32,247 nt of DNA from a virus, in IMG/VR virus record IMGVR_UViG_3300008050_000169, positions 1-32,247 of that record; one strand, given 5' to 3'. Below, piece by piece: positions 3,379-32,247 of the stretch. The notes under the pieces are model-generated. The model did not search any database. It was not told where the DNA came from and worked only from the letters and a program-made list of their open reading frames with translations. Every line of letters begins with the position of its first letter. Positions within the stretch are counted from its first letter, which is position 1. The position numbers and the translations under genes were made by a program.

Positions 3379-5247
3379 ATGAGTAAAATTATTGGTATTG
3401 ATTTGGGCACGACAAACTCTTGTGTTGCCGTCGTAGAAGGCGGAGAGCCTCGAGTTATTGTCAACGAAGAGGGAAGTCGAACGACGCCCTCTGTTGTCGC
3501 ATTTAATGACAACGAAGTCCTCGTTGGTGTTACCGCGAGACGACAATCTGTCGTAAACCCTGATAAGACTGTGTATTCAGTCAAAAGATTTATCGGCTCG
3601 AAGCTGAATGAAGTCAAGTCTGCAGCTAAAAAAGTTGCATTCAATGTGATTGCAACACCTTCTGGTGATGCATGTGTGAAGGTCGATGACAAGACATATT
3701 CACCCCCAGAAGTTAGTGCGAAAGTTCTTCAGAAACTCAAGAGAGCAGCTGAGAAGCACCTGGGTGAGTCGGTGACCGAAGCTGTGATCACTGTGCCCGC
3801 ATATTTTAATGACAGCCAACGTCAAGCCACAAAGGATGCAGGAAAAATTGCAGGATTAGACGTCAAGCGAATTATCAATGAGCCCACAGCAGCAGCGCTA
3901 GCGTATGGGTTGAATAGTGATTCTGAGCAGGTCATTGCCGTGTATGACTTTGGAGGCGGGACATTTGATGTCTCTGTTCTTGAGGTTACTGGTGACGTAG
4001 TTGAAGTGCTTTCGACTAGCGGAGACACTTATTTGGGTGGTGATAATCTAGATGAGGTCATTATTGACCATCTATTTGATTCTTTTAAGGAGCAGACTGG
4101 GATTGACATCAGCGCTGATAATATGGCACTACAGCGCGTTCGCGAGGCAGCTGAAAAGGCCAAGGTTGAGTTAAGCTCAGCCCAGCAAGCAGAAATCAAC
4201 TTGCCCTTCCTCACAGCTGACGCAACAGGCCCTAAGCACTTGACTCATACTTTGACTCGCTCGAAGTTTGAGCAGCTCACGGAGGGCGTGGTCAAAAAGA
4301 CATTTAAGTCGTGTCGTCGTGCGCTCAAGGATGCTGGCAAGAAAGCAAGTGAGATCGATCAAGTCATTTTAGTGGGTGGATCGACCCGCATTCCTCTCGT
4401 TATTGATAAGGTAAAGAAGTTTTTTGGAAAAGCACCGCATCAAGGTGTCAATCCTGACGAAGTGGTCGCATTGGGCGCTGCTGTCCAGGGTGGCGTTCTC
4501 TCAGGCGATGTCAAGGACGTGTTACTCTTAGATGTGACGCCGCTCTCTTTGGGCATCGAGACGATGGGTGGTATTACCACCAAGCTCATTAATCGTAATA
4601 CAACAGTCCCGACGAAAAAGTCTGAGATTTTCTCGACGGCAGCGGATGGTCAAATGCAAGTCGATATTCACGTTCTTCAAGGCGAAAGAGAGATGTCGAT
4701 TGATAATCGGTCATTAAGTCGATTTGCGCTCGACGGGATTCCGCCTGCTCCACGTGGCGTGCCACAGATTGAGGTGACGTTTGATATTGACGCGAACGGT
4801 ATCTTGAGCGTCTCAGCTAAGGATAAGGCAACAGGCAAAGAGCAGAGCATTACTATTCAAGATTCAAGCGGCCTGTCTGAAGATGAGATCGACCAGATGG
4901 TTAAGGACGCGTCGAAATTTGAAGCGGAAGACCAGAAGAAGAAAGCGCTGGTCGAGTCACGAAACGGCCTCAGCAATCTCGCACATCAGGCCGGCAAGCT
5001 GAAGGAGACGTTAGCTGAAAAGCTTGGTGACGAAGACATCTCAATGTTATCTGCTGCTATTGCCAAGGCGGAGTCAAGTTTGGAATGTGAGACAAAAGAT
5101 GAGCTTGATGCCGCAACGAATGAGCTGAGTGGGGTTTTACAGCAGTTAGCAAGTCAGGCTTATGAGGCAGTGTCCCCATCAGGTGATTCGCAGGCTGGAT
5201 CTGCTCCACCTGACGAAGATGTAATTGACGCTAAATTTGCTGAGTAA
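3379..5247 (+). CDS. dnaK: DnaK, Hsp70 chaperone
   Basis: 622 aa, close to the usual 610-640 of bacterial DnaK. The N-terminal ATPase domain shows IDLGTTNSC (residues 7-15), VPAYFND and DFGGGTFD, and VGGSTRIP near residue 336. A substrate-binding domain with the linker [15 protein letters not shown] and a helical lid follow. The end, [11 protein letters not shown], resembles the cytosolic DnaK tail that binds co-chaperones. Start ATG follows AAAAGGAG. It refolds client proteins by ATP cycles with a J-protein and GrpE; a J-domain protein is encoded at 22893-23480, while no GrpE is seen here. A full chaperone gene is unusual for a phage. All signature segments seem intact. Confidence 0.97.
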
Positions 5248-8581: not shown

Positions 8582-8739
8582 AGGTCGGAGACGCAGTCTG
8601 CCATGAGAAAAATCCTGAGTATGGTGCGGGGAAAATTGTATCTTTTCAACATAAACAGGGCACTATTCTAGTTAAATTTGAAAATCTTAAAGCACATACA
8701 TACCATATAGCATGGGACCTTAAACCAGAGAGAAAATAA
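8578..8739 (+). CDS. MKVGDLV-family small protein, dispersed copy
   Basis: 53 aa, MKVGDAV at ATG 8578, overlapping the previous stop as ATGA; ATG 8572 is an alternative. It contains a Y-G-A-G-K-I-V turn and I-L-V-K-F strand, the clearest SH3/KOW-like pattern of the family. It precedes the methylase by two bases. Confidence 0.7.
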   Translation: MKVGDAVCHEKNPEYGAGKIVSFQHKQGTILVKFENLKAHTYHIAWDLKPERK

Positions 8740-8740
8740 C

Positions 8741-9598
8741 ATGAAACCATTGTTTATGTGGGCAGGCGGAAAAAATAGAATGCTAAAAAGATATTCTTCA
8801 CATCTGCCCAAAGACTTTGATAGATATATTGAGCCTCTTTTTGGCGGCGGAGCTCTGTTTATTTGGGCATTCAATAAAAATCCAAATGCAGAGTTTATCA
8901 TTAGCGATTCAAATGTTGGAATCATGTCAATCTACAAAGCTGTTAAAAATGACATAACAAATTTTGTAGACAAATTAGACAAGCTAGAAGATCAATATCT
9001 TCCGCTAAGCAAAAGTGATAGAAAGGTATGGTACTATGAGCTTCGACATGATCATGCTTACAATTACAAAAAGTGGTCGTCTACTGAAGAAGCAGCTGTC
9101 TTATACTTTTTGCTGAAGACCTGCTTTAACGGAATTTGGCAGATCAATAAAAACACAAATGGTAGATTTGGCACGCCTTTTGGACTGGGTATTCAAAAAG
9201 GCAGTGTGTACAATAGGGAAATCGTAGATTGGTGGCACCGCGCACTTCAGAATACAATTATTCTGGACAGCGACTTTGAAAAAGTTGTAAAAAAGTACAC
9301 AACACCCAAGAGTTTTGTCTTCATGGACCCACCCTACAGGGGGTGCTTTACTCATTACGAGACTAACTTTGATGACAATGATCAAATCCGTGCTGTTAAT
9401 TGCCTACACCATTGTGACTCTCTAGGAGCCCACGGAATTCTCACCAATAGAGATATTTCTGATGATTTCTTTGAGCACAAGTGGCATACTGGCAAGATTC
9501 ATTATTTTGATGTGACATACACTGCCGGCCGACGCAAGAAGACTCAATTCGGGTTTAAAGCGAAGCAAGCAAGAGAAATGATTCTTGTGACAAAGTAA
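8741..9598 (+). CDS. dam: DNA adenine N6-methyltransferase, D12 (Dam) class
   Basis: 285 aa, typical for Dam. Motif I and the SAM site are visible as WAGGKNRML (7-15) and E-P-L-F-G-G-G-A-L-F (31-40); the catalytic motif IV is DPPY at 196-199. A D12-type F-N-G-I-W segment lies near residues 129-133. The enzyme would methylate adenine using S-adenosylmethionine, probably at a short palindrome such as GATC, which is not provable here. Likely roles are protection from host restriction or timing of phage gene expression. No cognate nuclease is seen nearby, so it is an orphan. Confidence 0.95.
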   Translation: MKPLFMWAGGKNRMLKRYSSHLPKDFDRYIEPLFGGGALFIWAFNKNPNAEFIISDSNVGIMSIYKAVKNDITNFVDKLDKLEDQYLPLSKSDRKVWYYELRHDHAYNYKKWSSTEEAAVLYFLLKTCFNGIWQINKNTNGRFGTPFGLGIQKGSVYNREIVDWWHRALQNTIILDSDFEKVVKKYTTPKSFVFMDPPYRGCFTHYETNFDDNDQIRAVNCLHHCDSLGAHGILTNRDISDDFFEHKWHTGKIHYFDVTYTAGRRKKTQFGFKAKQAREMILVTK

Positions 9599-9606
9599 TT
9601 ATTTTC

Positions 9607-9798
9607 ATGAAGATTGGTGACCTCGTTACACTCTTGTATGAGACAGTAAAATATTACATCATTATCGGTGACGCAGGAAGGCAAGGAGAGTTCGGAGAAA
9701 AGCAATATCTACTGCAGCCCATAGTAGGCGGCCCAGAGAAAAAAGCAAGATACTCAGATATTCGAACTGTTTGTAAAATTGATAGATGTAAAAATTAA
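9607..9798 (+). CDS. MKVGDLV-family small protein, dispersed copy
   Basis: 63 aa, MKIGDLVTL at ATG 9607, nine bases after the methylase. The core contains a Y-Y-I-I-I-G-D turn and Y-L-L-Q-P-I strand. Its end overlaps the next family member. Confidence 0.7.
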   Translation: MKIGDLVTLLYETVKYYIIIGDAGRQGEFGEKQYLLQPIVGGPEKKARYSDIRTVCKIDRCKN

Positions 9799-9985
9799 AG
9801 TAGGCTCACTGGTTAAGACCAGACGGTTGATTATTATCGATGGCCACGATTTTTCTAATCAAGTGGGGATTATAACCCACATATCAGAGGCAACACCTAT
9901 ATTGCCGTACCGTGTCGCGACTGTGTCGTTTGATGACAGGGTGCAAGATGGAATACTAATTCAAAATCTGGAGATTGTTACATGA
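9779..9985 (+). CDS. MKVGDLV-family small protein with unusual start
   Basis: The body K-V-G-S-L-V-K-T is a clear family member. By alignment its first codon is ATT 9794, which replaces the usual ATG or GTG. The only standard start in frame is TTG 9779, giving 68 aa (MIDVKIKVGSLV...). It has the Q-V-G-I-I-T turn and ends L-E-I-V-T. It is joined to the next gene by ATGA. The start is uncertain. Confidence 0.65.
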   Translation: MIDVKIKVGSLVKTRRLIIIDGHDFSNQVGIITHISEATPILPYRVATVSFDDRVQDGILIQNLEIVT

Positions 9986-16391: not shown

Positions 16392-17477
16392 ATGGACATC
16401 AAGACCTTTAAAACCCTAAGCTCGAAGCTCCCCGCAGAGATCGCAGTTCTGATGCGCGGGCCGACTGGGGTCGGCAAGTCCCACATGGGCAAGGCGCTGG
16501 CCAAGGAGGTCGGCCTTCCGTTCCTGGACGTTCGTGGTTCCACCATGGATGAGTCCCAGGTGAGCGGTATTCCTGATTTTGAGACGAGCAAGACGTCGGG
16601 CGTGGCAACCTTTTGCCTCCCGTCTTGGTACATCCGAGCCTGCCGCGAGCCAGTGGTCCTGATGTTGGACGAGCTGAACCGCTCGATGCCGCAGGTCATG
16701 CAGAGCTTCTTCCAGATCGTTCTGGACCGTGAGCTTGGAAACAACGTGGATGGTGAGCCGCTTCGGCTTCACCCTGAGACGCGTGTCATCGCTGCTGTTA
16801 ATCACGGCGCCGAGTACGACGTCAATGATATGGACCCGGCTCTCCTTCGTCGGTTCTGGGTCGTGGACCTTGAGCCTACTGTAACTGATTGGATTGATTG
16901 GGCTAATTGTAACGAGATCGATCCGATCACCATCGATTATGTCCGACAACACCCGGAGCATTTTCGAGTTGACCCCTCATCTGTGGACCCTGGAACGGTC
17001 ATTCCTACCCCTGCTTCATGGCACCGGTTGGATGACTCCCTGCGTCACATGGGGATGGCTGCGAGTGATGTGGCAGGCTCACGTCCGGAGGGATTCTACG
17101 CTCTGGCCACGGGTTTCATCGGAACTGAGGCCGCGATTTCCTACACGGATTTCGTTAACCGGTATGAGCGCGTCATCTCTGCTGAGGACGTCATGGCTGG
17201 AAACGTAGACGATGAGAGAGCTTCTGAGCTGAATGCCTCCGAGGCATTGACTGTCCTGGATAAGCTCGTTAATCACTGCAAGGATAACACCTGGACCAAG
17301 AAGCAGGCGAAGAACATCTCGGCTTTCGTTAAGACACGAGGTGGCGAACAGCTGGTCTACTTCTGGAACGCGGTCAGTAAGACCCAGCAGCTTCCAAATA
17401 TTCAGGCGCTCCACGGCCAGATTGGCCAGGACGTCGTCCGGTTGGTCCGCGAGGCCCGCGGTTTGTCGACCAAGTAA
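16392..17477 (+). CDS. MoxR-type AAA+ ATPase
   Basis: 361 aa, ATG 16392 behind AGGAGA. Walker A is GPTGVGKS (23-30), Walker B is V-V-L-M-L-D-E (88-94), the sensor-1 asparagine is N137 in A-A-V-N-H-G, and arginine-finger candidates are R153 and R154 in A-L-L-R-R-F. This fits the MoxR/CbbQ group, ring ATPases that remodel partner proteins, usually with a VWA-domain partner. No VWA gene is next to it; the only VWA-like protein in the window, YeaH at 29242, is 12 kb away and has its own PrkA ATPase. Substrate unknown. Confidence 0.88.
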   Translation: MDIKTFKTLSSKLPAEIAVLMRGPTGVGKSHMGKALAKEVGLPFLDVRGSTMDESQVSGIPDFETSKTSGVATFCLPSWYIRACREPVVLMLDELNRSMPQVMQSFFQIVLDRELGNNVDGEPLRLHPETRVIAAVNHGAEYDVNDMDPALLRRFWVVDLEPTVTDWIDWANCNEIDPITIDYVRQHPEHFRVDPSSVDPGTVIPTPASWHRLDDSLRHMGMAASDVAGSRPEGFYALATGFIGTEAAISYTDFVNRYERVISAEDVMAGNVDDERASELNASEALTVLDKLVNHCKDNTWTKKQAKNISAFVKTRGGEQLVYFWNAVSKTQQLPNIQALHGQIGQDVVRLVREARGLSTK

Positions 17478-24909: not shown

Positions 24910-25186
24910 GCGTAATAGTCTGCCCGACTTCATTGATGGTAAGCGATATTTTCTAAGACACGGGCGCTATAGAGATGGATCCGAAATTGTCTATAAGCGA
25001 CTTTCTGATGGTGAGACGTCTCTCGGGTCGGTGAGATGGTTTGAAAAAGAGAAATCAGGAAAAATTTCGATAACTGTTATTGACAATATACTGCACAATT
25101 ATCAAACATGCTACATTGAAGACATAATAGAGAAGGTTGATCAAAAAACAAGAAAGAAACTTGTAAGCAAAATGAACAAGCCTTAA
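24899..25186 (+). CDS. Hypothetical basic protein
   Basis: 95 aa, ATG overlapping the end of the previous gene. Beta-rich, basic (K and R throughout), with D-G-K-R-Y-F-L-R-H-G-R-Y near the N-terminus and a lysine-rich end. Not recognised. It is convergent with the protease on the other strand, overlapping it by 4 bases. Confidence 0.66.
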   Translation: MGRKRNSLPDFIDGKRYFLRHGRYRDGSEIVYKRLSDGETSLGSVRWFEKEKSGKISITVIDNILHNYQTCYIEDIIEKVDQKTRKKLVSKMNKP

Positions 25187-25959
25187 TTGATCCCCTTTAA
25201 GAAATTTACAATATCTTTATGACCAGCTCCGAGCCCCACACTTTCAATGTCTAGGTACGCAGCGTTAAGCATACCGACAGCTTGAAAATTTTCATTCAAA
25301 ACAACGGAACCACTAGATCCTGGGCGTGTCGGTATTGTAAAAAAGTGCCAGCGCTTATCATGGCCAGAATAATATCCTGAAAATATGAGTGTCATGGTTG
25401 GCGAATTGATTCCATACGGTGCTGATATCGCGTAAATGGGGTCGCCTATTTTAGGTGGCTTGTGTGATACTTTGACGGGCGGGGCTACCATCGATGGAAC
25501 AGATAGTGCACATAAGTCCTTTTTTTCATCGAGCGTAATAACTTCTGTTTCTAAAAATTTTCCAGACGTATTTCTTATCTTGATAATCGATTCTAACCTT
25601 ACAGAAAATTTTATTCCTTGCTGCTCAAAAATTTCCGGAAAATCATGTGTGCAAACATGTGCTGCGGTTAAAAAAATTGGTCGACCATTAGCCCACATTA
25701 AAAGCCCAGAACCAGAGCCACGTGCTACTATGGGAGGAAGCTTGCTAATAATCTCTTCACATTTATCAAATTCATCTGAAGGGAGGCACTTGTCAGGAAT
25801 TACCCTGTGAGTCACAGACACAAAGGCGAATGCGTCTACTGGTATTTCTGATGGTGATCGATTTGCATACTGAAGGTGGCTACTAAGAGATACACAGCTT
25901 ATAGATAAGCTTGATAACAGCACTATAAGCATCAAAATTGAGAGAAAATTCTTAAACAT
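25183..25959 (-). CDS. Trypsin-like serine protease, lipoprotein, minus strand
   Basis: 258 aa. Signal peptide (residues 1-21) ends at Cys22 in L-S-I-S-C. The triad is H101 in T-A-A-H, D148 in K-D-L-C-A-L and S216 in R-P-G-S-S-G. It is larger than, and on the opposite strand from, the related protease at 10732-11418, with the same domain order. Membrane-anchored, periplasmic or outer-membrane facing by prediction. The substrate is unknown. Confidence 0.86.
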   Translation of the reverse strand: MFKNFLSILMLIVLLSSLSISCVSLSSHLQYANRSPSEIPVDAFAFVSVTHRVIPDKCLPSDEFDKCEEIISKLPPIVARGSGSGLLMWANGRPIFLTAAHVCTHDFPEIFEQQGIKFSVRLESIIKIRNTSGKFLETEVITLDEKKDLCALSVPSMVAPPVKVSHKPPKIGDPIYAISAPYGINSPTMTLIFSGYYSGHDKRWHFFTIPTRPGSSGSVVLNENFQAVGMLNAAYLDIESVGLGAGHKDIVNFLKGIN

Positions 25960-26473: not shown

Positions 26474-27142
26474 ATGAAGTCAAACAAAAAAAAGAGATCG
26501 TCTTACAGAATGAGTAATGACCTAGAAAGATCTGAAGTTGGTGAGCAAATTTTATCGCAAGTAGAGTTAAACGGTTTTGACTTGGGACAAGACAGAGTTC
26601 CTCGAGGAATAGAAGTTGAAGAAAATAGAATTTATTTTTACTGTCCCATAGGAGATAAAGAGGCGCTTGAATTAAATAGAGTGATTAGAAGGCTAGACGT
26701 AGAAATGCAGTACCTTTCAAATAGACTAGAATGCGAAGAAATTCCAATCCATCTTCATATACACAGCCCTGGTGGTTCTGTATTTGCGGGATTGTCTATT
26801 ATCGACACGATGAAAAGGTGTAGAACATCAATTCATACACATGTAGAAGGATCAGCAGCTTCTGCAGCTACTCTTCTTGCATGTTGCGGAAAAAAAGAGC
26901 ATAGAACAATCGGCCAGAATGGATACATGCTTGTTCATCAACCACACATCGAGTGGTTTGGAAAATTGGATGACTTTAGAGACGAGATAGAAAATCAAAA
27001 GGAGCTGTACGAAAAGATAGTACAAATATATTTGAAAAATACCAATTTTAAAAAGAAAGAATTAGAAAAGCTTTTAGAGCATGAACTATGGCTAAATTCA
27101 GAAAAATGCATCTCTTATGGACTGGTGGACAAAATTTCATGA
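26474..27142 (+). CDS. ClpP-like serine protease (S14 family)
   Basis: 222 aa. Basic N-terminal extension of about 25 residues, then the ClpP core: oxyanion loop S-P-G-G-S (98-102), catalytic S130 in G-S-A-A-S-A, H155 in V-H-Q-P. At the site of the catalytic Asp of ClpP (R-D-x-F in E. coli) the sequence reads H-E-L-W, so the acid may be Glu here; this needs a structure-based check. Such proteins either cleave capsid or tail precursors, or work with a Clp ATPase, which is not seen in the window. It overlaps the next gene by 4 bases. Confidence 0.85.
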   Translation: MKSNKKKRSSYRMSNDLERSEVGEQILSQVELNGFDLGQDRVPRGIEVEENRIYFYCPIGDKEALELNRVIRRLDVEMQYLSNRLECEEIPIHLHIHSPGGSVFAGLSIIDTMKRCRTSIHTHVEGSAASAATLLACCGKKEHRTIGQNGYMLVHQPHIEWFGKLDDFRDEIENQKELYEKIVQIYLKNTNFKKKELEKLLEHELWLNSEKCISYGLVDKIS

Positions 27143-27570
27143 TAGTAGGATTTACATGTGGCACATTTGATTTGTTACATGCTGGGCATGCACTTATGCT
27201 TAAAGAATGCAAAAATTATTGTGATTATCTAATTGTAGGTGTCCAATCTGACCCTAGCATAGATAGAAAAGAAAAAAATAAGCCTGTTCAAACTTTTGTA
27301 GAGCGCATCACGATGGTCCAGTCTATCAAATGGGTAGATGAAATTGTACAGTACAATACCGAAAGTGACCTCTATCGCCTTTTAGAGCAGCTCTCAATAG
27401 ACGTAAGAATAGTAGGCACAGACTGGAAGCATAAAAAGTTTACTGGACATGACTTACCCATCAAAGTCATCTTTAACAGCAGAGACCACGGATATTCGTC
27501 ATCAGAGCTCAAAAAAAGAGTTTATGAGTCTGTAAGGGTTAAAATTTCTCGAGATGCACATAATGACTAA
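27139..27570 (+). CDS. Cytidylyltransferase, TagD/RfaE-N type
   Basis: 143 aa, ATG 27139 overlapping the ClpP stop. Nucleotidyltransferase marks: C-G-T-F-D-L-L-H-A-G-H (7-17) with HxGH at 14-17, R-I-T-M-V-Q-S, I-V-G-T-D-W, and a final Y-S-S-S-E-L. This is the family of glycerol-3-phosphate and sugar-phosphate cytidylyltransferases. It would attach a CMP to a small phosphorylated compound. The remnant at 12474 belongs to a related family. Confidence 0.83.
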   Translation: MIVGFTCGTFDLLHAGHALMLKECKNYCDYLIVGVQSDPSIDRKEKNKPVQTFVERITMVQSIKWVDEIVQYNTESDLYRLLEQLSIDVRIVGTDWKHKKFTGHDLPIKVIFNSRDHGYSSSELKKRVYESVRVKISRDAHND

Positions 27571-29164
27571 GTGGCAAAAATATTTTCCGTATAAGCAGCC
27601 AAGAGACTTGCAAGTTAGTGCTATTAATGAAATACTTGACAGCTTCAAGACAAACAGATTTTTTGCCCTTGAGGCAGGCACCGGAGTTGGTAAAAGTGCA
27701 GTTGGGTTAACAGTCGCCAAGTCTATTTTAGAAAATCCGGCAGAAGAAGGGTATGAAAAGGGAGCAATTTTTGTAACAACGCAAAAGCTGTTACAAGATC
27801 AGTATGAAAAGGACTTCGGAAATCTTTCTATGAAGTCAATTAAAAGCTCCTCTAACTACACGTGCAATTTCAAAAAAACAAAATCATGCAATGAGGGTCA
27901 ATCTGAATTGCAGTCAATTGAAAAGGGAACTAGACAGTGGAATACATGCACGTTCAATTGCAATTATAAAAAGGCCAAACAAGACTTTTTAGATAGCCCG
28001 CTATCAGTGACAAATTTTCCCTATCTTATGACAGAAGCAAATTATAATGGTAAGATAAAGCCGCGGCAACTCTTAATAATTGATGAGGCACACAATGTCG
28101 AAACAGAACTTTCTAAATTTATTGAAGTAGCAGTCTCTGAAAGATTTGCCAAGTCGAGTCTTAAAATTAGCTTCCCCAGCTTAAAGACACATCATCAAGC
28201 ATTTGTCTGGATTAGGGACATTTATTTTCCAAAACTTAAGAGACATTGTGATCACATTAAAAAAATGTTAGAAAAATATCATGGCTTAAAGGGCAAAATC
28301 GATCAATTTACGAAGCTATCTAGGCAGCTTAGAGCAACAGATAGTCATCAAAAGAAAATCGAACAATTTTTAGAAGTTCATGAAAAAGACAATTGGGTCT
28401 TTGAAAATACATTTAGCGACCACAAGGGGTATAAAAAAATAACTTTCAAACCCATCGATGTTTCTAAATTTGCAGAACAGTACCTATTTCGGCTGGGGCA
28501 CAAAGTCCTGTTCATGTCAGCTACAATTCTTTGTAGTGATAAATTTTTTGAATCTCTTGGAATCGCGTCTAGATCTTCTAGCCTTTCTTTGCCTTCACCG
28601 TTCCCTGTAAAGAATAGACCCATTCTACATGTTCCCATGGGAAAAATGACAGCTAAAGAAATCGATAAGACACTGCCTATTTTGTGCAAAGCAATTGAAA
28701 AAATTCTAGAACAGCACAAAACAGAGAAGGGAATTATCCACACACACTCTTACAAGATAGCAAATTATCTTAAGAGTCACATTAAATCTAAACGACTTCT
28801 ATTTTCTGATGCTAGTAATAGAGATGAAATTTTAAAGAAGCACATGAGTGCCAAAACACCCACAGTCCTTGTATCACCCTCAATGACTGAAGGTGTTGAC
28901 CTACACGGTGATCATTCCAGATTTCAAGTAATTTGTAAAGTACCCTATCCATACTTGGGAGATAAATTAGTGAAAAAAAGAATGAACAAGTGGAAGTGGT
29001 GGTACTCATTTCAAACGGCAAAGTGTCTAATACAATCGATAGGAAGATCAATAAGATCAAAAGAAGATAGAGCAGTCACGTACATACTAGACTCAGATTG
29101 GGATAGATTCTATTGTTACAATGGAAGCCTCTTTCCGACAGACTTCTCAAATTGCATCAAGTAG
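27554..29164 (+). CDS. DinG/XPD-family DNA helicase
   Basis: 536 aa; overlaps the previous gene by 17 bases (ATG 27563 is an alternative). Walker A is AGTGVGKS (41-48). Four cysteines at 104, 112, 132 and 136 lie where XPD/DinG proteins carry the iron-sulfur cluster. D-E-A-H is at 177-180. The second RecA domain contains Q-S-I-G-R-S-I-R, the motif VI of this group. It would unwind DNA 5' to 3' at forks, R-loops or damage. It is shorter than E. coli DinG but complete in motifs. Confidence 0.88.
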   Translation: MHIMTKWQKYFPYKQPRDLQVSAINEILDSFKTNRFFALEAGTGVGKSAVGLTVAKSILENPAEEGYEKGAIFVTTQKLLQDQYEKDFGNLSMKSIKSSSNYTCNFKKTKSCNEGQSELQSIEKGTRQWNTCTFNCNYKKAKQDFLDSPLSVTNFPYLMTEANYNGKIKPRQLLIIDEAHNVETELSKFIEVAVSERFAKSSLKISFPSLKTHHQAFVWIRDIYFPKLKRHCDHIKKMLEKYHGLKGKIDQFTKLSRQLRATDSHQKKIEQFLEVHEKDNWVFENTFSDHKGYKKITFKPIDVSKFAEQYLFRLGHKVLFMSATILCSDKFFESLGIASRSSSLSLPSPFPVKNRPILHVPMGKMTAKEIDKTLPILCKAIEKILEQHKTEKGIIHTHSYKIANYLKSHIKSKRLLFSDASNRDEILKKHMSAKTPTVLVSPSMTEGVDLHGDHSRFQVICKVPYPYLGDKLVKKRMNKWKWWYSFQTAKCLIQSIGRSIRSKEDRAVTYILDSDWDRFYCYNGSLFPTDFSNCIK

Positions 29165-29241: not shown

Positions 29242-30162
29242 ATGTCAATTTTTAGAGAACATAAGACAGTCGCCGATCGATCAGCCTCAGATAGACGTCG
29301 TCACAAGAAAAAAATAGAAAAGTCTATTAGGGAAGGCATCCACAATATTGTTGCAGAAGAATCTATTATCGGTAAAGATGGAAAAAAGAAAATAAGAATT
29401 CCAGTGCGCGGAATTAAGGAGTATAGATTCGTATATGGAAGCAATGAAACAAATAGAAAAGTAGGATCTGCCCCAGACAAGGACATTAAACGTGGGCAAA
29501 AAATAGGTGATACACAAAAAAAGAAACCTGGCCGCGGCGAAAATAATCCTGGTGATGACCCCGGTGAGGAGTACTATGAAGTAGAGATCACATTAGAAGA
29601 ATTGGCAGACTACCTTTTTTCTGATTTAGAATTGCCAGATCTTGAAAGAAAATCGCTCAAGGTGTCTGAGCTGGATCGTCTCAAGAGGAAGGGATACAGA
29701 TCAGAAGGCATCACACCTAGACTAGATAAAAAGAAATCTGCTATCGCAAGAATTAAGAGAAGAAGTGCGGCGTCTAAAAGAGAGGGTTTTGATGAAAACG
29801 AGAAATTTTCTTTTCATGAAGAAGATCTCAAATATCGACATTTCAAAAAAACTAAAAAGCCTTGTTCGAGTGCCGTAATATTTTTTGTAATGGACATATC
29901 AGGATCCATGACAACTCAGAAAAAATTTATAGCAAGAAGCTTCTATTTTTTACTATATCATTTTATCAGATCAAAATATAATCATACAGAAATAGTGTTT
30001 GTGTCACACGATACAATGGCATATGAAGTAAGTGAAGATCAATTCTTTACTAGGGGAAACTCTGGCGGAACGATGGTCTCATCAGGCTTAAACTTGGTAG
30101 AGGAAATAATAAACCAAAGATTTCATCCAGACGCTTGGAACATATATGTTTTTCAATGTTGA
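29242..30162 (+). CDS. yeaH: YeaH (DUF444, VWA-like) protein, N-terminal part up to in-frame TGA
   Basis: 306 aa before the stop. Basic N-terminus, R-x-x-H-x-K-K-I-E-K-S-I-R segment, then the VWA-like metal site D-I-S-G-S at 218-222. The gene stops at TGA 30160-30162, but the same frame continues without break for 90 codons and encodes the family C-terminus (D-G-D-N-W-P-D-D). In relatives a serine or similar residue stands where the TGA is. So this is a nonsense mutation, read-through, or a sequencing error. YeaH acts with PrkA and SpoVR in stress responses of bacteria. Confidence 0.85.
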   Translation: MSIFREHKTVADRSASDRRRHKKKIEKSIREGIHNIVAEESIIGKDGKKKIRIPVRGIKEYRFVYGSNETNRKVGSAPDKDIKRGQKIGDTQKKKPGRGENNPGDDPGEEYYEVEITLEELADYLFSDLELPDLERKSLKVSELDRLKRKGYRSEGITPRLDKKKSAIARIKRRSAASKREGFDENEKFSFHEEDLKYRHFKKTKKPCSSAVIFFVMDISGSMTTQKKFIARSFYFLLYHFIRSKYNHTEIVFVSHDTMAYEVSEDQFFTRGNSGGTMVSSGLNLVEEIINQRFHPDAWNIYVFQC

Positions 30163-30432
30163 GACGGAGATAATTGGCCAGACGACACAGAAAAAACGCT
30201 CGCATCGTTGGAAAACCTCAAGCGAATCGCACAGCTTTTTGGCTACTGTGAAATTGATACAGCCCCCTTAAGGAAAAGTGACACTTCTGGATGGTTTAGA
30301 GAGAGTCGACTCTCTAAGGTTTATACACCCTACATAGATAGAAAATTAAAAATTGTTGAAGTAAATTCTAAAGAAGATGTATGGCCTGCTTTTAATAAAT
30401 TTTTCAACAGAAGGGTTATAACGAGCAACTGA
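30163..30432 (+). pseudogene. yeaH: YeaH C-terminal part, continuing in frame
   Basis: Directly follows the TGA in the same frame, to the TGA at 30430-30432. Residues D-G-D-N-W-P-D-D and the F-G-Y-C-E-I-D segment match the family end. TTG 30208 could start a separate peptide. If the TGA is read through, the combined protein would be about 396 aa, close to the usual length. Confidence 0.7.
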
Positions 30433-30433
30433 T

Positions 30434-31738
30434 ATGGATTGGACGTTTAATTTATTAGAAGAATGGGATCAAAAGATATCCATTATTGCTGCTAAGAACG
30501 GTTTGGATTGGTTTCCCATCACATATGAAGTGTGTGATTACTATTCCATGATTGGACACATGTCTTACCATGGTATGCCCACTCATTATGGGCACTGGTC
30601 ATATGGCAAATCTTTTGAAAGAACACACACGATGTATAACATGGGTGCAGAAGGCCTTCCATATGAGTTGATCATCAATTCCAATCCATCAATTGCTTAT
30701 CTTATGAGAGAGAATCCTGCTTATTTGCAAATATTGATCATGGCTCACTGTGTGGGTCATTCTGATTTTTTTAAAAACAATAGAATGTTCAAGAATACTA
30801 ATCCCGAATCTATTGTTGGAAAACTTAGGAGCGCAAAAAAAAGAATTCAACAGTATGTTGAAGATCCTACAATAGGAATTGACGAAGTTGAGATAATTCT
30901 GGACGCTGCACAAGCGCTTCAATACCAGACTTATAGATACGGTCAAAAAAGAAAATCTCATCATGAGCTTTTAGAAAAATACACAAAGTTAATAAAAGCG
31001 TCTGATGATGATGAATTTGATAATTTCGACCTAGACAAAAAACCTCTTGAACCTGACTATGACATCTTGGGCTTTATATTAGAAAATTCTAGAAGCATGC
31101 CTTCATGGAAAAGAGATGTCATAGAAATTGTAAGAGAAGAATCAAAATATTTTATTCCACAAATTCAAACTAAAATTATGAATGAGGGGTGGGCGAGCTA
31201 CTGGCACTATACTCTGTGTCATGAATTAAATTTGCCAGCCGAGTGGCACATACCTTTTCTAAAAATGCATAATCAAGTAATAAGACCGCATGTGGGAGGA
31301 TTAAATCCGTACCATCTTGGGTTTGTGGTGTTTCAGGACATCAAAGAGAAGCACGGAATAGAAGAATGTTTTATAGCTAGAGAATCTTCACACGATGTTG
31401 CATTTTTGCGTCAGTATTTAACAAGAGAGCTTTGTCAAAAGTTAGGTCTATTCTCATATTCAGAAAAAAAGAAAGATATCACAATAGATGAAATACACGA
31501 TGAGGATGGATGGAAATCTGTAAAAAAATCTCTCTTGACAAATATAGGGACAAATGGGATTCCAGTAATTTACGTGGACGAAATAGAAATTGATGGGACA
31601 TTAGTTTTAAGACACGAGCATGATGGTCGCGACCTTGATCTCGACAATTCTGATGAGGTTTTGTGTCATGCAAAAACTCTATGGGACGACGATGTTAAAT
31701 TATTTACTATCATTGAAGAGGAAGTTTGGGAAATTTAG
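30434..31738 (+). CDS. spoVR: SpoVR family protein
   Basis: 434 aa, starting one base after the YeaH stop. It matches SpoVR in its conserved segments: W-F-P-I-T-Y-E-V-C near residue 26, Y-E-L-I-I-N-S-N-P, A-H-C-V-G-H-S-D-F-F, and N-E-G-W-A-S-Y-W-H-Y at about 248. In bacilli SpoVR is needed for normal spore cortex; in other bacteria it is co-expressed with PrkA and YeaH under stress. Its molecular function is not settled. Length and all major segments are normal. Confidence 0.92.
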   Translation: MDWTFNLLEEWDQKISIIAAKNGLDWFPITYEVCDYYSMIGHMSYHGMPTHYGHWSYGKSFERTHTMYNMGAEGLPYELIINSNPSIAYLMRENPAYLQILIMAHCVGHSDFFKNNRMFKNTNPESIVGKLRSAKKRIQQYVEDPTIGIDEVEIILDAAQALQYQTYRYGQKRKSHHELLEKYTKLIKASDDDEFDNFDLDKKPLEPDYDILGFILENSRSMPSWKRDVIEIVREESKYFIPQIQTKIMNEGWASYWHYTLCHELNLPAEWHIPFLKMHNQVIRPHVGGLNPYHLGFVVFQDIKEKHGIEECFIARESSHDVAFLRQYLTRELCQKLGLFSYSEKKKDITIDEIHDEDGWKSVKKSLLTNIGTNGIPVIYVDEIEIDGTLVLRHEHDGRDLDLDNSDEVLCHAKTLWDDDVKLFTIIEEEVWEI

Positions 31739-31791
31739 AAAGATTTCAATTTTTCAAAATACGAGACACACTTTAGAGGTATTATAGAATC

Positions 31792-32247
31792 ATGTCTATT
31801 AAAAATGAACTTTTAGAAGCTATTAAAGCACAGAGAAAAGCAAGCGAATCTAATCAAAAGTTTGAAGGAACATTTTTGGACTATCTAGAGATAGTGGAAA
31901 AAGATCCTAGCATTATTGAATCTAGTCATAAACGGCTCCATTCAGCACTTGTTGAGCATGGGGTTAAAAATATGTCAGATTCTGACCCTCGAAAGAGAAA
32001 AATCTTTGATGGCAATAGTGTTAGAATTTATCATTACTTTAAAGATCACTTCTTTGGTATGGAACATGTGATCATGAAAGTAATGAGATTTTTAAAATCA
32101 GCTTCGCACAAAGGTGAAGAAAGTAGGCAGGTATTATTGCTAATGGGCCCAGTTGGAGCAGGCAAATCAGCTCTCACCGAACACATTAAAAAATCGCTAA
32201 TTGGGAAGTCATATTACCACTTAAAGGGAGATCCTCAAAGAGGAGAA
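31792..32247 (+). CDS. prkA: PrkA serine protein kinase, partial (right edge)
   Basis: 152 codons in frame, running off the window. It has a T-F-L-D-Y-L-E-I-V segment near residue 27, I-F-D-G-N near 71, Y-F-K-D-H-F-F-G-M at 82-90, and Walker A G-P-V-G-A-G-K-S at 119-126. This is the AAA+ part of PrkA, an unusual kinase with an AAA+ core. Start ATG 31792 follows TTAGAGG by about 13 bases. It follows SpoVR by 53 bases and completes the YeaH-SpoVR-PrkA module. Confidence 0.9.
   Translation, partial: MSIKNELLEAIKAQRKASESNQKFEGTFLDYLEIVEKDPSIIESSHKRLHSALVEHGVKNMSDSDPRKRKIFDGNSVRIYHYFKDHFFGMEHVIMKVMRFLKSASHKGEESRQVLLLMGPVGAGKSALTEHIKKSLIGKSYYHLKGDPQRGE

Follow-up and report, generated by a model that had tools for sequence, protein, structure and literature searches.

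A Reordered yeaH-spoVR-prkA Gene Trio in Mostly Marine Jumbo Phages and Its Putative Role During Infection

What would a phage do with a set of genes that bacteria use in the physiology of starvation and sporulation? The question is raised by an IMG/VR virus record of 32,247 bp (in the following "the window"), a contig fragment that carries genes of the YeaH, SpoVR and PrkA families at its right end (29242-32247). A first-pass annotation made from the letters of this record had interpreted them as a complete stress module carried by a phage behind a helicase, with which the virus may hold its host in a stress-like state. Here we analyze how far this interpretation holds for the window itself and for its viral relatives, where the genes may have come from, and which function they could fulfill.

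Organization of the Three Genes in the Window

All three genes were found as annotated, adjacent to each other and on the + strand. The first is an interrupted reading frame for yeaH (DUF444, 29242-30432), which on read-through matches PF04285 with an E-value of 3.1e-111 and ends in a C-terminal VWA domain with a MIDAS site. It is followed after 1 nt by an uninterrupted spoVR of 434 aa (30434-31738), which scores above the cut-offs for both PF04293 (E 1.4e-122) and SpoVR_C (PF24755) and could be aligned with 25 relatives, and after another 53 nt by the 5' part of prkA (31792-32247, AAA_PrkA, PF08298, E 7.8e-33), inside which the contig ends. The designation as a "complete" module could not be sustained, since yeaH is interrupted by a TGA at codon 307 and PrkA is cut to 152 aa (of about 644 aa) that comprise the start of the AAA domain and its Walker A motif. 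For the same two reasons a functional module is not supported for the window record either.

The helicase reported ahead of the trio is indeed present (27554-29164, + strand, phrog_2488, DEAD/Helicase_C_2), and a helicase was also found upstream in 30 of the 71 distinct relatives that have more than 6 kb of upstream sequence. Further upstream lie a gene for a ClpP-like protease (26474-27142, + strand), assigned to Clp protease in Pfam and to head maturation protease in PHROG and shared with several of the closest relatives, and, on the - strand, a gene for a trypsin-like peptidase (25183-25959, PF13365, E 4.8e-14); an upstream cluster with a trypsin-like representative occurs in 15 of 30 sampled loci.

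A Gibbs search for a promoter motif of its own upstream of yeaH returned a weak A/T-rich signal only, and sigma-70-like sites were not commoner than in shuffled sequence. A strong "motif" preceding prkA turned out to be the conserved 3' end of spoVR and was discarded.

Conservation of the Trio in Viral Relatives

Scans of IMG/VR retrieved 58 viral loci with yeaH and 195 with spoVR, of which the best 80 were used; some contigs were fetched twice, and the set comprises about 100 distinct proteins. The order yeaH-spoVR-prkA on a single strand was observed in 135 out of 135 viral loci (with the spoVR scan represented by its best 80 of 195). The first two genes usually overlap (median gap -4 nt), which suggests co-transcription of the three, and spoVR and prkA are separated by a median of 31 nt. 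PrkA has a length of 640-648 aa in all 132 complete viral copies, and the three viral proteins that were checked possess both the AAA_PrkA domain and the C-terminal kinase-like domain. Contigs with the trio reach 361 kb; a terminase gene (TerL) is encoded in 20 of 20 large records and a tail-sheath match was obtained in 15 of these 20, and in one locus (L047) a Gp23-type capsid gene is located close to the trio. The overlapping genes and the recurrence of the same trio in viral loci therefore uphold the idea of a three-gene module carried by a phage, and the check that had been proposed, i.e., whether other jumbo phages carry the three genes together, had a positive outcome in all 135 loci and in the 20 large records with terminase. 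The term jumbo phage itself is appropriate for these relatives, given their contig sizes and terminases, but is not demonstrated by the window. Nor is the trio universal: only 3 of 17 large contigs picked by TerL similarity carry it, many of the 17 being fragments. From the genomic data the trio would represent a fixed and strongly selected phage operon, predominantly of marine jumbo tailed phages.

Downstream of prkA and on the same strand, 61 of 92 distinct loci contain a gene for a divergent GroEL-like chaperonin (phrog_5725; match to GroEL in the PDB with E 3.6e-7; for example L046:7539-8837), and in the other 31 loci no chaperonin is found within 6 kb. In 7 of 30 sampled loci, the trio is followed after a few kb by an FtsZ/tubulin-like gene; in one of the encoded proteins (L055:15572-16651) the match to FtsZ has an E-value of 3.5e-10 and that to PhuZ is weak and under the Pfam cut-off.

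Median dN/dS ratios of the three genes are about 0.03-0.04 in the marine phages (rough values from few pairs with high dS), and the distances among the trio proteins follow those among the TerL proteins (Mantel r 0.75-0.88, 0 of 2000 permutations, 18 records). The low ratios together with the co-divergence with TerL point to long vertical retention under purifying selection. The conservation extends to residues of likely functional relevance. The MIDAS residues of YeaH (D218, S220, S222, T277 and D308) are invariant across phages and bacteria, the Walker A motif of PrkA (GPVGAGKS) is fully conserved in the sampled phages, and the lysine equivalent to K426 of E. coli YeaG is kept in every sampled phage PrkA. 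SpoVR has an invariant set of histidine and glutamate residues (H54, H105, H109, E251 and H258), which could bind metal. In a structural model of the read-through frame, a VWA domain with MIDAS is predicted for the C-terminal half of YeaH, and among the folds that it matches are MIDAS domains of AAA+ proteins, namely Rea1/MDN1. The model of SpoVR (pLDDT 77) had no match in the PDB at E <0.001.

An In-Frame Stop Codon in yeaH

The interruption of yeaH in the window consists of a single in-frame TGA (30160-30162), located immediately before the MIDAS aspartate D308. Because it adjoins this invariant residue, termination at codon 307 should disable the VWA domain, and the remark in the first-pass annotation that a TGA in YeaH would matter is justified to this extent. 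But the codon is private to the window record among about 135 viral loci, the others having mostly Ser, or else Thr or Gly, at this site (never Cys or Trp), and so it does not characterize the phages as a group. The frame downstream of the TGA shares 61% with that of L061, as compared to 49-61% in intact control pairs, and the changes are mainly in third positions. As conservation past the TGA thus equals that in intact pairs, the codon appears to be a contig error or else a nonsense allele of very recent date, rather than a recoded codon.

We lean slightly toward a sequencing or assembly error in the metagenome contig, in which case yeaH would be intact in the phage: a single codon, found in no other viral locus, is affected, and the constraint downstream of it is not relaxed. 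This is countered by a scan with the 35-mer around the TGA, in which the base in question was left free and which found no other viral contig, although the records closest to the window possibly lie outside the scan. A second copy of the window phage was not found by an exact-match scan either. A true nonsense mutation, by which yeaH would be dead in this record and the module possibly on a first step toward its loss, is possible but not the reading we favor. It would remove D308 and the 90 C-terminal residues, and translation would end 272 nt before the start of spoVR, a gene that overlaps with yeaH in most relatives, so that spoVR could become uncoupled. That such alleles may arise is suggested by another private in-frame TGA in the yeaH of L068, whose frame ends after 280 aa and whose near-identical sister L067 is intact. 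However, spoVR is intact in the window, and the conserved frame with its third-position changes implies that any loss would be very recent. Recoding of the TGA through a suppressor tRNA, an alternative code or selenocysteine is highly improbable in spite of the 90 conserved residues over which the frame stays open, because TGA serves as the normal stop of about a dozen other probable genes of the window, including the neighboring clpP-like gene, and because the four tRNAs encoded in the window (Leu, Arg, Lys and Met) include no suppressor or Sec tRNA; the absence of Cys and Trp from this site in the relatives is also at odds with it.

Bacterial Counterparts and Origin of the Phage Genes

Our bacterial sample covers Pseudomonadota, Bacillota and Bdellovibrionota. 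The sampled clusters of Pseudomonadota and Bacillota that contain all three genes have the order prkA-yeaH-spoVR, with a single exception (L206 in G151), a 2.8-Mb contig of a genome from the phylum Bacillota which shows the phage-like order yeaH-spoVR-prkA. The order prkA-yeaH-spoVR had earlier been attributed to enterobacteria; other Pseudomonadota do have it, but in E. coli MG1655 only yeaG and yeaH adjoin each other, and ycgB, which encodes SpoVR, is found about 0.6 Mb away.

The phylogeny of the three proteins, which had also been suggested as a check, places the phage copies in one clade each: PrkA of the marine phages with a support of 99 (100 in a quick tree, for a single clade of 30 rows), SpoVR with 100/99 and YeaH with 89. 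The possibility that the window is host chromosome, which the first-pass annotation had itself raised, was rejected on the basis of the phage gene order, the phage-only clade and the terminase on large relatives. Even the matches on genome contigs (L138-L140, 73-74% identity) show the phage gene order and nest within the phage clade, and one of them (L139, NHDW01000006, 305,838 bp) carries TerL. These three contigs with a phage-type trio belong to public MAGs assigned to Methylococcaceae TMED69, Legionellales and Halobacteriovorax, and it seems that jumbo-phage contigs have been binned there as bacterial genome. The record of Enterobacter phage LAU1 (MN688132), a "phage" sequence of 30 kb with annotated YeaG and YeaH, may include host DNA.

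Among the sampled bacteria, the PrkA nearest to that of the marine phages is from a minor Bacillota lineage. A recent pick-up from the present host was rejected for the sampled groups, as the copies of Pseudomonadota and Bdellovibrionota are far more distant than those of this lineage. Uncultured huge phages of 600 kb group with Pseudomonadota, and phages of Thermus with other Bacillota, the latter placement being on long branches. Since both branch apart from the marine phage clade, the trees indicate at least three separate uptakes of the trio by phages.

Comparison to Known Systems

With the bacterial prkA(yeaG)-yeaH-spoVR(ycgB) module, represented by YeaG/YeaH/YcgB of E. coli and PrkA/SpoVR of B. 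subtilis, the phage trio shares the protein families, the domain pair of PrkA, the MIDAS, the equivalent of Lys426 and the adjacency of the genes. It differs in the permuted order yeaH-spoVR-prkA, the phage-only clade, the location in a jumbo genome and the GroEL-like gene that is often found downstream. The Thermus phages phiYS40, TMA and Lalka8 likewise encode the trio in the order yeaH-spoVR-prkA; in the record of phiYS40, SpoVR and a "serine kinase" are annotated and the YeaH homolog adjoins in the same order. In contrast to the marine phages, however, these are smaller phages with a trio near portal and TerL, and their PrkA has about 30-33% identity and a separate origin in the tree; in phiYS40, one extra gene is located between spoVR and prkA. 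The 600-kb huge phages (LR745206, LR756502 and LR756504) resemble the marine phages in being large and in having PrkA and YeaH, with SpoVR encoded in the same genome, but exhibit the bacterial gene order and sequences of the Pseudomonadota type, indicative of an independent acquisition. In the Ralstonia jumbo phage RsoM2USA, SpoVR (ORF28) and a PrkA-family kinase (ORF30) have been annotated (PMC8504454), two families that are also part of the window trio.

In marine viromes of the ETNP oxygen minimum zone, spoVR was reported to be more abundant than any other viral sporulation gene (PMC8940887). As far as the accessible part of that study shows, this "sporulation AMG" is treated there as a single gene, with no trio, gene order or clade described, and "prka" does not appear in its text (PMC8940887). 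It is thus already known that cultured phages such as phiYS40 and Lalka8 have the genes of the trio, that SpoVR and PrkA occur together in RsoM2USA and that spoVR is abundant in marine viromes. In our literature search we found no paper describing the trio as a phage operon, which is weak evidence of absence. What has so far been listed under "sporulation" among the auxiliary genes of ocean viruses would, from our data, be one third of a trio with PrkA and YeaH, which unrelated phages captured repeatedly. In place of a vague annotation there is now a putative complex of three proteins that can be tested, for which cultured phages such as phiYS40 and Lalka8 make experiments practical, and the phage trio would offer a second system for asking what PrkA, YeaH and SpoVR do.

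Putative Function of the Trio

We consider it about an even chance that the trio is a bacterial PrkA-YeaH-SpoVR module adopted by phages that works as a remodeling complex, with host physiology as the most likely side of its targets. In this model the trio would be made as one transcript, PrkA would assemble into an AAA+ ring and YeaH would be the adaptor that docks onto this ring via its MIDAS/VWA domain, with SpoVR as a third subunit or substrate-facing partner. Driven by ATP, the complex would remodel target proteins during infection, most likely as a metabolic brake on the host, through which a starved and slow-growing cell may stay productive over the long infection of a jumbo phage; a close alternative would be that it acts like a chaperone on proteins of the phage. 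The pairing of an AAA+ ring with a MIDAS protein has precedents in MoxR/RavA-ViaA, Mg-chelatase and Rea1/MDN1.

In E. coli starved of nitrogen, YeaG and YeaH serve as a metabolic brake (PMC4664914, PMC10954441), and for this reason we favor host control in long infections, with the holding of the host in a stress-like state, as proposed in the first-pass annotation, being the leading functional guess. The K426A variant of YeaG is inactive, and loss of K426 abolishes the effect of YeaG (PMC10954441). PrkA of B. anthracis forms ATP-dependent oligomers, and protease activity was not detectable for it (PMC13001217).

A chaperone or assembly role on the phage side fits the gene neighborhood about as well as a host stress state. 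The neighboring genes for ClpP-like, trypsin-like and GroEL-like proteins, the DnaK encoded in the window and the position of the trio of Lalka8 between portal and TerL speak against host control in that they could equally indicate folding or head assembly. The trio could accordingly serve phage proteins as an AAA+/VWA remodeler which, with the GroEL-like chaperonin and the proteases, folds, assembles or matures, e.g., head proteins. The same-strand chaperonin gene behind prkA in the majority of the loci (61/92), the two neighboring protease genes, the location of the trio, which in Lalka8 is flanked by portal/minor head protein and TerL and in phiYS40 is close to TerL, and its co-divergence with TerL would all be compatible with such a role. 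We nevertheless regard it as the less likely of the two: in the marine phages a long stretch separates TerL from the trio (about 100 kb in G003), the bacterial homologs work in the physiology of starvation and sporulation and not in virion assembly, and 31 of the 92 loci are without a chaperonin within 6 kb. Returning to the adopted bacterial module, we tentatively propose, with some doubt, a more comprehensive scenario in which a quiescence module of bacteria, captured at least three times, became a reordered operon of marine jumbo phages coupled to a chaperonin-like protein, and was retained over long times as a phage-specific AAA+/VWA machine that would set host metabolism or phage assembly in long infections.

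Other Features of the Window

The GC content of the window is 0.41-0.51 to the left of about 24 kb and 0.36 to the right. A chimeric origin of the window with this step as its junction was considered and is not supported for 16-32 kb, because several jumbo relatives keep a gene for a MoxR-like AAA ATPase (phrog_1297, 16392-17477 in the window) at a distance of roughly 10-25 kb from the trio. This ATPase might belong to a second AAA+ system. A match to a DNA methyltransferase (8735-9829) overruns its own stop and contains five in-frame stops, which may reflect either a decayed gene or an alignment that exceeds a short gene. Finally, a complete DnaK/HSP70 gene is present at 3379-5247, similar to genes in one large relative (G003, 62%) and in two of the huge phages (LR745206 and LR756502).
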